Assembly (NCBI RefSeq): GCF_023823125.1
Contig: NZ_CP090949.1
Location: 558,001-622,000 of the forward strand
DNA length: 64,000 nt
Reading direction: 5' to 3'
Source: Erythrobacter aurantius
GTDB lineage: Bacteria > Pseudomonadota > Alphaproteobacteria > Sphingomonadales > Sphingomonadaceae
The translations under genes and the position numbers were made by a program. Positions within the stretch are counted from its first letter, which is position 1, and each line of letters opens with the position of its first letter. Of this stretch, positions 7,187 to 41,363 are shown in pieces. The notes beneath the pieces were generated by a model. That model made no database searches. It was not told the origin of the DNA and saw only the letters and a list, made by a program, of their open reading frames with translations.

Positions 7187-8239
7187 ATGGTTAATGGCGA
7201 GGCAGGAATTGCACTGGCAGAGCGGATCGCCGATCAGGCGCGCGCGCTCGGCTTTGTCGCCTGCGGGATCGCCAGCGCGGCGGAGGATCCGGAGCGCGCC
7301 TGCAGGCTGGAACAATGGCTGGGCGAAGGCCATCACGGCTCGATGGAATGGATGGAGACGCGGGCGGAGCACCGCCGCTCGCCGCAAGGGCTGTGGCCCG
7401 AGGCGCGCAGCGTCATTGCGCTTGGCATGAGCTATGCCCCGGCAGCCGATCCGCTGGCGCTGGAGGCGCACCCCGATCGTGCCCGCATATCCGTCTATGC
7501 GCAGGGCAAGGATTACCATGATGTCGTCAAGAAACGGCTGAAGGCACTGGCCCGCTGGCTGGTGGCGGAAGAGCCGGAGGCGCAGGTCAAGGTGTTCGTC
7601 GATACCGCCCCGGTAATGGAAAAGCCGCTCGGCGAGGCGGCAGGGATCGGCTGGCAGGGCAAGCACACCAACCTCGTCAGCCCGGATCACGGTAGCTGGC
7701 TGTTCCTCGGCGCGATCTACACGACGCTGGAACTGGAGCCGTCGCAGCCGCACCGCGACCAGTGCGGATCGTGCCGGGCGTGCCTTGACGCTTGCCCGAC
7801 GGATGCTTTCCCCGCGCCGTACAGGCTCGATGCGCGGCGCTGCATTTCCTACCTCACGATCGAGCACAAGGGCGAAGTGCCGCATGAATTCCGTGAGGCA
7901 TTGGGCAATCGCATTTACGGCTGCGACGATTGCCTTGCCGTCTGCCCGTGGAACAAGTTTGCGAGCGAGGCGCACGCCGCGCGCGAATTCCTGCCGCGCG
8001 CCGAATTGACCGCGCCGCGCCTCGCCGAATTTCTGGCGCTGGACGATGCCGGGTTTCGCAGCCTGTTTTCCGGCTCCCCGATCAAGCGGATCGGGCGCGA
8101 CAGGTTTGTGCGGAACTGCCTCTATGCGGCGGGCAACAGCGGCGATGCCGCTTTGCTGGCGCAGGTCGAGAGGTTGTTGGCCGATCCCGATCCGGCGGTG
8201 GCGGATGCAGCCGGGTGGGCGAAGGCGCGGCGCGCCTGA
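7187..8239 (+). CDS. queG: epoxyqueuosine reductase
   Basis: QueG reduces epoxyqueuosine to queuosine in the wobble position of tRNAs with GUN anticodons, using cobalamin and two [4Fe-4S] clusters. The 350-aa product has the N-terminal DUF1730-type domain and two ferredoxin-like cysteine groups ([16 protein letters not shown] near residue 190 and [14 protein letters not shown] near 245), followed by a short C-terminal region. Length and motif order match the family. The ATG follows a GGGAG at about 12 bases. It ends four bases before copy 1 of the repeated element described below. Confidence 0.95.
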
Positions 8240-8242
8240 TCG

Positions 8243-8430
8243 TTTTCCTACTGCGAAGCCGTGCGCTATGGCGGGGGCGGCTCTTTCAAATCGTCGGCAA
8301 TATCGGATCACCGGGAGGGAGGGGAATTTTTAAAACACGATAAGTGTTAATTTCGCTTTTCGGGTGTTTTTCCGCCGGTTTTCAGACGGATAGGGCGCGC
8401 AGAGCCGCCTGACACCGTGTCAGCTTTGTC
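8243..8430 (-). repeat. duplicated non-coding element, copy 1
   Basis: Read on the minus strand, this 188-nt stretch matches 40305-40493 in four ordered blocks: A (8410-8430) is identical over 21/21, C (8339-8362) matches 22/24, E (8264-8297) matches 29/34 and F (8243-8251) matches 9/9. Spacers have the same lengths (47/47, 41/42, 12/12) but little identity. Block A contains the palindrome TGACACGGTGTCA. An extra tandem GTCAGCTTT repeat (8419-8436) flanks it. The element lies between two convergent genes (queG and the ferredoxin reductase), so it has no obvious downstream gene to control. This is the whole content of the 232-nt gap. Function is unknown; a small RNA or dispersed repeat are the main options. 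Confidence 0.75.
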
Positions 8431-8471
8431 AGCTTTATTCGCAGGTGCAGAATGATGGCCGCCGGCGATGA

Positions 8472-38725: not shown

Positions 38726-40006
38726 ATGGACAAACTCATCATTCGTGGCGGCAACCGCCTTTCCGGCACCATTCCGATCTCGGGGGCCAAGAACGCCGCC
38801 CTCACCCTGATCCCCTGCGCTCTGCTTACCGAAGAGCCGGTGACGCTGCGCAACCTGCCGCGGCTGGCGGACATCGACGGTTTCCAGCACCTGATGAACC
38901 AGTTCGGTGTCACCACCGTCATCCAGGGGACGCGGCCCGAAGATTTCGGGCGCGTGATGAGCATGGAGGCGACGCGCATCACCTCCACCGTCGCGCCATA
39001 CGATCTGGTCCGCAAGATGCGCGCGTCGATCCTCGTGCTTGGTCCGATGCTGGCCCGTATGGGTGAGGCCACGGTGTCGATGCCCGGTGGCTGCGCCATC
39101 GGCAACCGGCCCATCGACCTGCACCTGAAGGCACTTGAAGCCTTCGGGGCGAAGATCGAGCTGGCGCAAGGCTACGTGAAGGCGACCGCGCCTGAAGGCG
39201 GATTGCCCGGCGGCGAGTTCGACTTTCCGGTCGTATCCGTCGGCGCGACCGAGAACGCGGTGATGGCAGCCGTGCTCGCCAACGGAACCTGCAAGCTCTT
39301 CAACGCCGCACGCGAGCCGGAGATCGTTGACCTGTGCAACCTGTTGGTGGCGATGGGCGCGGAGATCGAAGGTATCGGCACCTCCGACCTCACCATCCAC
39401 GGGGTCAAGCGGCTGCATGGCGCGACCTACCGGGTCATGCCCGACCGGATCGAAGCCGGTTCCTATGCTTGCGCCGCCGCCATCACCGGAGGCGACGTGC
39501 GGCTGGAAGGTGCCAACGCGCATGACATGGCTTCGACCATTCACGCCCTGCGCGCCATCGGAGTCGAGATCGACGAGGACAAGAAGGGCATCACCGTCCG
39601 CGCCAACGGCAAGCTCAAGCCGGCAAATCTCACCACTGCGCCTTTCCCCGGCCTTGCCACCGACATGCAGGCACAATTGATGAGCCTGCTGTGCAAGGCC
39701 GAAGGCACCAGCGTCCTCAAGGAAACGATCTTCGAAAACCGTTTCATGCACGTGCCTGAACTGGCGCGCATGGGGGCTGACATCGCCACCGAAGGTCGCA
39801 CCGCGATTGTCAAAGGGCCGGTCAAGCTGACCGGAGCCGAAGTCATGGCGACCGATCTGCGCGCTTCGATGAGCCTGATCATCGCCGCGCTCGCCGCGGA
39901 AGGCGAGACGACCGTGCGCCGCATCTATCACCTCGACCGCGGATACGAGCGGCTGGAGGAGAAGCTGCAACTGGTGGGCGCCGATATCGAACGCGTCGAC
40001 GACTAA
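38726..40006 (+). CDS. murA: UDP-N-acetylglucosamine 1-carboxyvinyltransferase
   Basis: MurA transfers enolpyruvate from PEP to UDP-GlcNAc, the first committed step of peptidoglycan synthesis and the fosfomycin target. The 426-aa protein has the N-terminal [16 protein letters not shown] loop and the catalytic loop [16 protein letters not shown] with Cys123, so it should be fosfomycin-sensitive at this residue. It ends with [19 protein letters not shown]. The start is chosen at MDKLI with a GGCAGAGG site before it. It overlaps the convergent RHH gene by 4 bases. Confidence 0.97.
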
Positions 40007-40236
40007 CCTATAGTCTGCGTCACCAACCACACCCGGATCGCGCTGGCGAGGCCGGGCGGGGTGGGTGACTTTATCCGCTCCGCATCGATCCGCCCGACGA
40101 GCGCGCTGATCGCAACGCCTTCGTTTTGTGCCGCTTCCTTGAGCATGTCCCAGAATACGGGCTCCAGGCTGATCGAGGTCTTGTGCCCGGCGATCTGGAT
40201 CGAGCGTTTGACCGGGGGATGATAGGGCGGCGTCAT
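40003..40236 (-). CDS. ribbon-helix-helix domain protein
   Basis: A 77-aa protein whose [20 protein letters not shown] begins with a beta-strand-like ribbon followed by two helices, the pattern of the RHH_4 (PF13467-type) family of small DNA-binding proteins common in alphaproteobacteria. It may act as a repressor. It is divergent from the LuxR-type gene across a region holding copy 2 of the duplicated element, so it could bind there; this is speculation. No strong ribosome site precedes the ATG. Confidence 0.75.
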
Positions 40237-40304
40237 GCGCGATGCGATAGCATGGAAGCCGCACCCTGTCCGCATCGCGCTTTTGCGCAGGTGCGAAGGA
40301 AATT

Positions 40305-40493
40305 GACAAAGCTGACACGGTGTCACGCGCCATTTCGGCGGCCAATCATCTGATTAAACGAAGGAAAATGGGCGAAAAGTGAAATTGACACTTATCCAAA
40401 TTTAAAAAATTTCTCTCCCCGCCAACTGGACCAGAAAACCGACAGTTTGAAAGAGCCGCATCCGGCATAGCGGGCGCAAGCCATGTAGGAAAA
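40305..40493 (+). repeat. duplicated non-coding element, copy 2
   Basis: Blocks A 40305-40325, C 40373-40396, E 40439-40472 and F 40485-40493 match copy 1 (8243-8430) at 21/21, 22/24, 29/34 and 9/9 with equal spacing. Block A holds TGACACGGTGTCA; block C contains TTGACA (40385-40390; TTAACA in copy 1) followed by an A/T-rich run, a possible promoter conserved in both copies. Here the element sits between the divergent RHH and LuxR-type genes, so it may be the promoter and leader of the latter. It accounts for most of the 350-base gap 40237-40586. Confidence 0.75.
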
Positions 40494-40586: not shown

Positions 40587-41363
40587 ATGACTGCCGCGAT
40601 CGATCAACTGACCGAAAAGGAGAAGGAAACCCTGCGCCTGATCGTGCGCGGGCATGACGCCAAATCGGCGGCGATCGAGCTGGATCTCTCGGTGCATACG
40701 ATCAACGAGAGGTTGCGATCCGCGCGGCGCAAGCTGGATGTCACCAGCAGCCGCGAAGCCGCGCGTGTGCTTTACGAGAGCGAAGCACAGGCCGCCGAGA
40801 GAACCCCCCAAAAACTTGCATACGAACATTTGGGGGATGCGGCGATGCTGCCATCGCCCGATGATCCTTCCATCAGGAAACGGGGCCGAAGCCCGGCTCT
40901 CTGGATTGGAGGAATTATCATGATGATGACACTCGCAGCCGTAATCGCGTTTGTTCAATCGGGCGGATGGGAAGTGCAAACTGGTGGCTGGGAAGCCCGG
41001 TCTGAAGTGGCGGATTCATCCGCCGCTGCGCAGGAAGATGCAATCCGCGAACAAGCTGCACGGGAATGGCTGGCTCTGGTCGACAAGAGCGATCTGGAAA
41101 CCAGCTTTGCGGCAACCACGTCAGCTTTCCGCTCTGCCGTGGACCTTGCCATGTTCAAATCCGCAACCGCTGCAGCAAGGGCGCCACTCGGCGAAGTGTT
41201 GGAACGACGGGCAATCCAGTTCACTACCGTGAATGAAGCGGGCAAAACCTATGAAATCGCGCTGTTCCGCACCGATTTCGAAAACCGCGTTGGCGTGATC
41301 GAGCGCGTCGCGATGGAACGCGATGGCGGGCAGTTGAAAGTCGGCGGCTATTTCATCCAGTAG
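40587..41363 (+). CDS. membrane-anchored LuxR-type HTH protein with DUF4019 domain
   Basis: A 258-aa protein. Residues 5-62 form a GerE/LuxR-type helix-turn-helix (LTEKEKETLRLIVRGHDAKS, SVHTINERLRSARRKL); a transmembrane helix lies at about 105-125 (ALWIGGIIMMMTLAAVIAFV); the rest, outside the membrane, resembles DUF4019 (REWLALVDKSDLETSF, RAPLGEVLERRAI). The DNA-binding domain thus faces the cytoplasm and a sensor faces the periplasm. A GGWE-x-GGWE mini-duplication follows the helix. Start is uncertain: no clear ribosome site, with in-frame alternatives at TTG 40500 and ATG 40527. Copy 2 of the repeated element lies directly upstream. Confidence 0.8.
   Translation: MTAAIDQLTEKEKETLRLIVRGHDAKSAAIELDLSVHTINERLRSARRKLDVTSSREAARVLYESEAQAAERTPQKLAYEHLGDAAMLPSPDDPSIRKRGRSPALWIGGIIMMMTLAAVIAFVQSGGWEVQTGGWEARSEVADSSAAAQEDAIREQAAREWLALVDKSDLETSFAATTSAFRSAVDLAMFKSATAAARAPLGEVLERRAIQFTTVNEAGKTYEIALFRTDFENRVGVIERVAMERDGGQLKVGGYFIQ

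Follow-up and report, generated by a model that had tools for sequence, protein, structure and literature searches.

A dispersed family of noncoding units

A first-pass annotation of a 64,000-nucleotide stretch of the Erythrobacter aurantius genome (hereafter, the window) described two intergenic copies, 32 kb apart, of a noncoding element with four conserved blocks, which raises the question of what such an element is and which protein might read it. The two copies (units a and b; Table 1) belong to a noncoding dispersed family that is unlike an ordinary gene promoter, as the annotation had proposed, and the promoter-like box of this family is also carried by lone genes of the chromosome that encode a helix-turn-helix (HTH) protein similar to terminase small subunits (TerS-like). 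We lean toward reading the units as dispersed docking units of this domesticated phage-derived protein, with which they would coevolve.

Both copies were present where they had been reported. Their global alignment (40303-40493 on the plus strand versus 8243-8430 on the minus strand), a check that the annotation had itself suggested, scored 68.5, far above 1000 mononucleotide shuffles (mean, 2.4; standard deviation, 1.6; maximum, 11.5), and blocks A (TGACAAAGCTGACACGGTGTCA), E, F, and G (GTAGGAAAA) follow the single shared order and near-constant spacing claimed for them. Further copies, the other check proposed, were found at 10 places in the window's own genome (G000, 3.42 Mb; other G numbers denote related genomes, and L numbers denote loci) by BLAST with one copy, the query counted, and in relatives across the sphingomonad family. 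A sequence-only profile built from 12 copies, to which the G000 copies belong, gave 10 matches in G000 (E values of 1e-23 to 1e-29). At E <=0.01, profile rows numbered 10 in G000, 26 (25 places) in G001, 10 in G004, 8 in G047, 7 in G052, and 6 in G013, weaker rows being partial matches. The profile matched 19 of 61 genomes, including 18 of 37 within the same genus; in some genomes the pattern or profile match is the gene-side copy itself, and G003 and G175 have no other.

Read in the orientation of the annotation, a copy consists of the A module, an A/T-richer middle, block E, a tract, a variable stretch, block F (present in roughly half of the copies), and a terminal GTAGGAAA. The sequence GTAGGA[AC]A occurs in 57 of 62 copies, with F-like sequence in 32 of these 57, and the distance from A to E is 77 or 78 bp in the 12 copies aligned first. 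The blocks are conserved and the spacers are not, those of copies within one genome being unrelated. The linker of the A module is near-uniform inside most genomes and differs among genomes (AAGG, CAAG, CATT, CACC, AGGT, GAGG, and others). The tract is A/T in G000, consists of A runs in G013, and consists of G or C runs in G001, where runs of at least seven G, or of C, occupy one place behind block E and vary between copies. The annotation had suggested a possible promoter in block E, with its TTRACA hexamer; this cannot hold for the family in general, because other genomes have a run of G, C, or A in place of the A/T-rich stretch behind that hexamer.

The exact A pattern was found in 32 of 298 genomes of the family, representing 20 of 96 genera, with a maximum of 27 sites in one genome, and the reversed-pattern control gave 0. 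Among the matches listed, records named Erythrobacter/Porphyrobacter, Croceicoccus, Pontixanthobacter, Parasphingorhabdus, Qipengyuania, Altererythrobacter, and Novosphingobium carry the pattern, as do a few unrelated taxa that lack the remaining blocks. In two Lachnospiraceae records (L188 and L220), it stands upstream of a gene read as TetR-like, probably as an unrelated operator.

The TerS-like gene and the probable direction of the unit

A motif script recognized 36 of 44 TerS-like loci, to which the counts of boxes and modules refer; start-codon spacing was obtained for 34 of the 36. TTTCCTAC (in two cases TGTCCTAC), the reverse complement of GTAGGAAA/GTAGGACA, stands upstream of all 36 genes. 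In 32 of 34 it lies 35 to 37 nt ahead of the start codon, usually with a CTTATCC-like box between, an arrangement that would fit a leaderless promoter. At the other end, 25 of the 36 genes have an A module at their 3' end. Since the box is upstream of the TerS-like genes, the dispersed units are read likewise, from the box at G to the A module downstream; the unit most likely runs opposite to the orientation first assigned, in which the palindrome led. The idea that the element carries its own operator and promoter thus survives for the operator-like and promoter-like parts, with the promoter moved out of the second block. The promoter-like box alone is not specific, because three G000 paralogs without A modules carry TTTTCCTAC upstream (by eye).

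All 28 TerS-like proteins searched matched phrog_4044 (best E value, 6.2e-22), a family that also matched in 2 of 14 control genomes; by this homology, the protein is a member of the terminase small subunit family. Its best structural neighbors were Sf6 TerS. A PDB sequence search with the TerS-like profile returned a single match (E value, 0.16), and NCBIfam matched 1 of 28 members, to an IS3 transposase model at 0.0034. The Pfam results for the protein contained no HUH nuclease domain and only weak HTH models. An ortholog is present in 23 of 31 genomes with the A pattern versus 6 of 31 without it, the latter being hand-picked from the top of 266 with several incomplete or small genomes left out. 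Near the TerS-like gene of L309, L327, and L333, a common stretch around GACGTCGAA[AT]TTTGCGACGGACTTCG is followed by CGTTAACCAGACGACGACTTCC-like sequence and is conserved across genera.

Gene-side and dispersed modules vary together

The half-sites of the module are genome specific, and the gene-side and dispersed modules match within most of the genomes tested. We compared the two in 24 genomes in which a gene-side module was recognized and one or more dispersed copies were available, leaving out the gene-side site itself and G000. Mismatches averaged 1.06 of 19 positions within a genome versus 2.96 after permutation, and none of 100,000 permutations was as low; these statistics ignore kinship, sample 11 of 24 dispersed copies for G001 and 13 listed of 27 for G223, and include exact-pattern genomes that contribute exact dispersed copies, in which only linkers vary. 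The dispersed module of the same genome was closest or tied for 15 of the 24 gene modules. In G041, a GCGGACA-type half-site was read first at the gene, and the four dispersed copies fetched later all had it, as predicted.

Ten copy sets have flanks common to different species, and each copy is of its own genome's half-site kind. Seven positions that G000 has in common with other species (six with both flanks), drawn from loci already collected rather than from a systematic search, carry a GTTCCA-type unit in G000 and TGACA-type units of their own kinds elsewhere, all behind a T[TG]TCCTAC box. At the sequence level, the blocks follow the genome and not the locus.

A second unit family in the genome of the window

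A close ortholog of the long TerS-like protein is absent from G000 (best E value, 1.4e-23). At 3,270,984 this genome has a short TerS-like open reading frame (ORF), 92 codons open, with the HTH part only (phrog_4044 E value, 3.4e-11), adjoining a gene read as hpf, the same neighbor as in G001 and G052. TTTCCTAC lies upstream of this ORF, and seven GTGACA-like repeats 19 to 23 bp apart followed by GTTCCACCCGTTCCA lie downstream. The motif GTTCCANNTGTTCCA occurs at 26 places in G000 (control, 0), one of them in coding sequence, and T[TG]TCCTAC stands upstream in 24 of the 25 noncoding places. This GTTCCA family comprises 25 units (L393 to L417, all outside the window), of which 15 have GTGACACTTT-like arrays of five to seven repeats. 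Of 81 repeat spacings, 69 are 20 to 23 bp (mode, 21), i.e., about two DNA turns, so the array sites would face one side of the DNA.

Like the TGACA module, the GTTCCA module combines an inverted repeat and, 9 bp further along, a direct half-site. The larger dispersed family of G000 therefore carries the module type of the resident short TerS-like gene, and on this ground the 10 TGACA-type units look like an older set. Among units without F, 18 of 19 of the GTTCCA type and 10 of 25 of the TGACA type have an ATG 34 to 38 nt from the box; windows of equal width elsewhere average 8%, with largest values of 26 to 29%. A peptide reading of the GTTCCA module (TVFHxFHPVG) was unsupported, as ORFs cross the module in two frames (by eye). 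The sense direction is on the plus strand in 25 of 35 G000 units (binomial p, 0.017). One GTTCCA unit (L402, near 1,430,033) encloses a small ORF beginning MTYTPSPTLKPVFDAVRRMLGRGF, which we take to be a phage-lysin-like piece.

Neighborhood, gain, and loss of units

Nearly every unit is intergenic. Neighbor orientation was taken from our own ORF scoring rather than from curated annotation, and a right-hand gene call was available for 60 of 62 copies. Of these, 29 lie between convergent genes, 18 have both genes reversed, and 8 and 5 are arranged otherwise; the GTAGGAAA end points toward a gene 3' end in 47 (p, 1.2e-5). By eye, the genes flanking the 62 copies have no functional theme and look like unrelated housekeeping genes. 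These arrangements do not fit a transcription factor regulon, in which operators would be expected at promoters of functionally related genes.

At the queG junction occupied by unit b, 19 of 30 fetched loci have overlapping gene ends and no element; the others are three with a GC-rich insert of ~115 bp, six with an extra ~1.2 kb, one incomplete locus, and G000. Since the junction mostly lacks the element, whole units can evidently come and go in one piece. A possible 5-bp duplication, TGATC, was noticed by eye at the G000 copy, in this one case only, and no inverted ends were seen by eye in TGACA-type units, for which no formal search was made. In G001, G048, and G050 (L117, L118, and L122), the place of the G000 unit is taken by a sequence different from the unit, an inverted-looking GC-rich insert of ~115 bp. 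Several species have units with A through E but no F or G in the interval separating two genes that we read as glyS and ppdK (L058, L099, L217, L247, and L316); the A module of L058 ends ~20 nt ahead of the start codon.

Possible roles of the units

Binding of the modules by the TerS-like protein is likely, given the matching type, the position, and the homology. Each unit would be a stand-alone recognition site for the lone chromosomal protein, and the sites would change together because one protein would have to read all of them. In the sense direction, a unit starts with TTTCCTAC and a -10-like box, followed by F or by an ATG at the leaderless position, and continues through a short variable stretch and half-site repeats to a final A module; the TerS-like gene is the same unit enclosing an ORF. 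As the sites stand downstream of the promoter-like box and at gene 3' ends, we tentatively suggest, as a possible rather than a probable role, that bound oligomers mainly roadblock or silence the unit's transcription and feed back on the TerS-like gene. A more speculative and rather improbable extension is that the protein builds packaging-like nucleoprotein complexes on ~10 to 35 fixed units per genome (promoter plus pac-like two-turn array), which diversify rapidly together with it and set where packaging of host DNA by phage-like particles begins or is prevented. Several genomes weigh against the match between gene-side and dispersed modules. The one dispersed copy fetched from G045 mismatches its gene module, G042 is mixed, a single gene copy mismatches in G093 and another in G234, and G014 and G016 have units without a strong TerS-like ortholog. 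In all, 8 of the 31 pattern-positive genomes lack such an ortholog.

These 8 genomes would be expected if the modules were operators of another DNA-binding protein (e.g., a TetR-type regulator) and the TerS-like gene merely carried a site, and a TGACANNNTGTCA operator with an extra half-site does stand upstream of the TetR-like gene of L188 and L220. We consider this unlikely, however, as the module type follows the module of the TerS-like gene, including the GTTCCA type of G000 and the GCGGACA type of G041, and no other DNA-binding neighbor recurs among the flanks of the 62 copies (by eye). There is a similarly small chance that the units are nonautonomous mobile elements, i.e., ORF-less derivatives of the TerS-like gene unit spread in trans by the TerS-like protein or by an unknown recombinase. 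The gene unit and the dispersed unit have both ends in common, and both the intergenic placement and the empty queG junctions would follow; yet the units persist at shared positions across species with half-sites changing in place, the unrelated spacers within one genome mean that they are not recent copies, and the marks of transposition amount to the single possible duplication, with no inverted ends seen in the TGACA type.

Pac-like packaging signals, by which the protein would mark chromosomal starts for host DNA packaging by phage-like particles or prevent it, are improbable. The protein is TerS-like, and the passages of PMC9611059 on P22 place its pac site within the TerS gene, and here the TerS-like gene has the site at its end, but we noticed no large-terminase gene next to the lone genes, although no dedicated search was made, and packaging leaves the promoter-like box unexplained. 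The small-RNA family proposed in the annotation, as an alternative to the dispersed repeat that we found, is very improbable. A stand-alone promoter-like box and a conserved F block near the expected start would suit it; against it, there is neither covariation nor stable structure, the putative transcribed spacer is not conserved, and Rfam gave no gathering-level match within the window. A hairpin with G (GTAGGAAA) in its loop, convincing by eye, was at chance level when the arms were shuffled, as 706 of 2000 shuffles reached the observed value. An F-G stem was likewise rejected (772 of 5000 shuffles; mean z, -0.25; standard error, 0.14; n = 66), as was a hairpin terminator ahead of the tract, from F to the tract (mean z, +0.02 to +0.53 in five genomes). 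These results give no support to a structured small RNA, although an unstructured transcript may exist.

Comparison with known systems

In REP/RAYT systems, a single-copy domesticated protein gene has flanking sequence dispersed as short intergenic units with per-genome variants. The present layout is alike (a protein gene, dispersed short intergenic units, and genome-specific variants), but the GTAG within GTAGGAAA is not the foot of a detectable hairpin, the Pfam results show no HUH nuclease domain, and the protein is TerS-like. Miniature inverted-repeat transposable elements are short and intergenic, contain no ORF, and have the same ends as a unit that does contain one. The units described here agree in all of this and differ in being kept at shared positions with changing half-sites and in lacking visible inverted ends (TGACA type, by eye). 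SlmA is a TetR-type protein with a single short site and tens of palindromic sites over the chromosome; the likeness lies in one protein with tens of palindromic sites chromosome-wide, and the difference is that our units are composite, with a promoter-like box.

Phage TerS with pac or cos sites resembles the present system in its homologous HTH protein (phrog_4044, 28 of 28) and in a site in or beside the protein's own gene (here an A module, 3' in 25 of 36 genes). It differs in that here the gene is lone and chromosomal and the many dispersed units each have a promoter-like box. The passages of PMC11841831 on gene transfer agents describe chromosomal terminase small subunits in alphaproteobacteria; compared with the proteins as described there, ours is likewise chromosomal and alphaproteobacterial but has an HTH. 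The passages of PMC9611059 on pac-type packagers report weak, sequence-independent DNA contacts of TerS in vitro, failed attempts to measure binding of P22 TerS to its pac sequence, and a lack of support for nucleosome-like and threading models. Searches of the open-licence literature, at the level of listings and abstract openings, showed no description of these units or of such use of a phage protein. We rate as new that a lone TerS-like protein occurs together with dispersed units of promoter plus module and that all sites change jointly. This points to a protein-and-site pairing not described before. If correct, this would be a novel use of a phage protein, as far as the literature searched shows, and TerS-like sequence recognition and the joint evolution of a protein with all of its sites would become directly testable, as nature offers many pairs of TerS-like protein and site whose half-sites are specific to the genome, as many as 27 exact sites in one genome, and arrays of two-turn pitch. 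If binding fails, the finding reduces to a new kind of dispersed repeat.

Features in the window

Table 1. Positions of the unit parts and of a neighboring gene in the window; -10-like boxes and the role given to block F in unit a are inferred
Feature	Position	Strand	Remark
Unit a, TTTCCTAC promoter-like box (block G reversed)	40485..40492	-	From sequence; box common to 36 of 36 TerS-like genes
Unit a, -10-like GCTATG (putative)	40466..40471	-	Spacing as in other units
Unit a, F block	40441..40457	-	Near the expected transcription start (putative)
Unit a, A/T tract	40398..40412	.	G, C, or A run here in other genomes
Unit a, E block	40381..40397	.	With one half-site
Unit a, A module TGACA-N4-TGACA-N3-TGTCA	40304..40325	.	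Downstream end in sense direction
RHH_4 gene	40003..40236	-	Target direction of unit a
Unit b, TTTCCTAC promoter-like box	8244..8251	+	4 nt past the queG stop codon (8237-8239)
Unit b, -10-like GCTATG (putative)	8265..8270	+	
Unit b, F block	8279..8295	+	
Unit b, A/T tract	8325..8335	.	
Unit b, E block	8338..8354	.	
Unit b, A module	8410..8431	.	
Extra block CTGCACCTGCGAA, past the unit b A module	8438..8450	.	Kept in G000 copies and one G046 copy

Unit a (40304-40492) had been described as leading into a LuxR-type gene. With the direction reversed, as is most likely, it points away from that gene and faces the RHH_4 gene. The LuxR-type gene (40587-41363) encodes an HTH fused to DUF4019; because its homologs sit elsewhere in relatives, unit a lies at a break in gene order. 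The TTTCCTAC 8-mer occurs three times in the window, compared with 0.27 expected; two of the occurrences belong to the units, and the third is inside queG.
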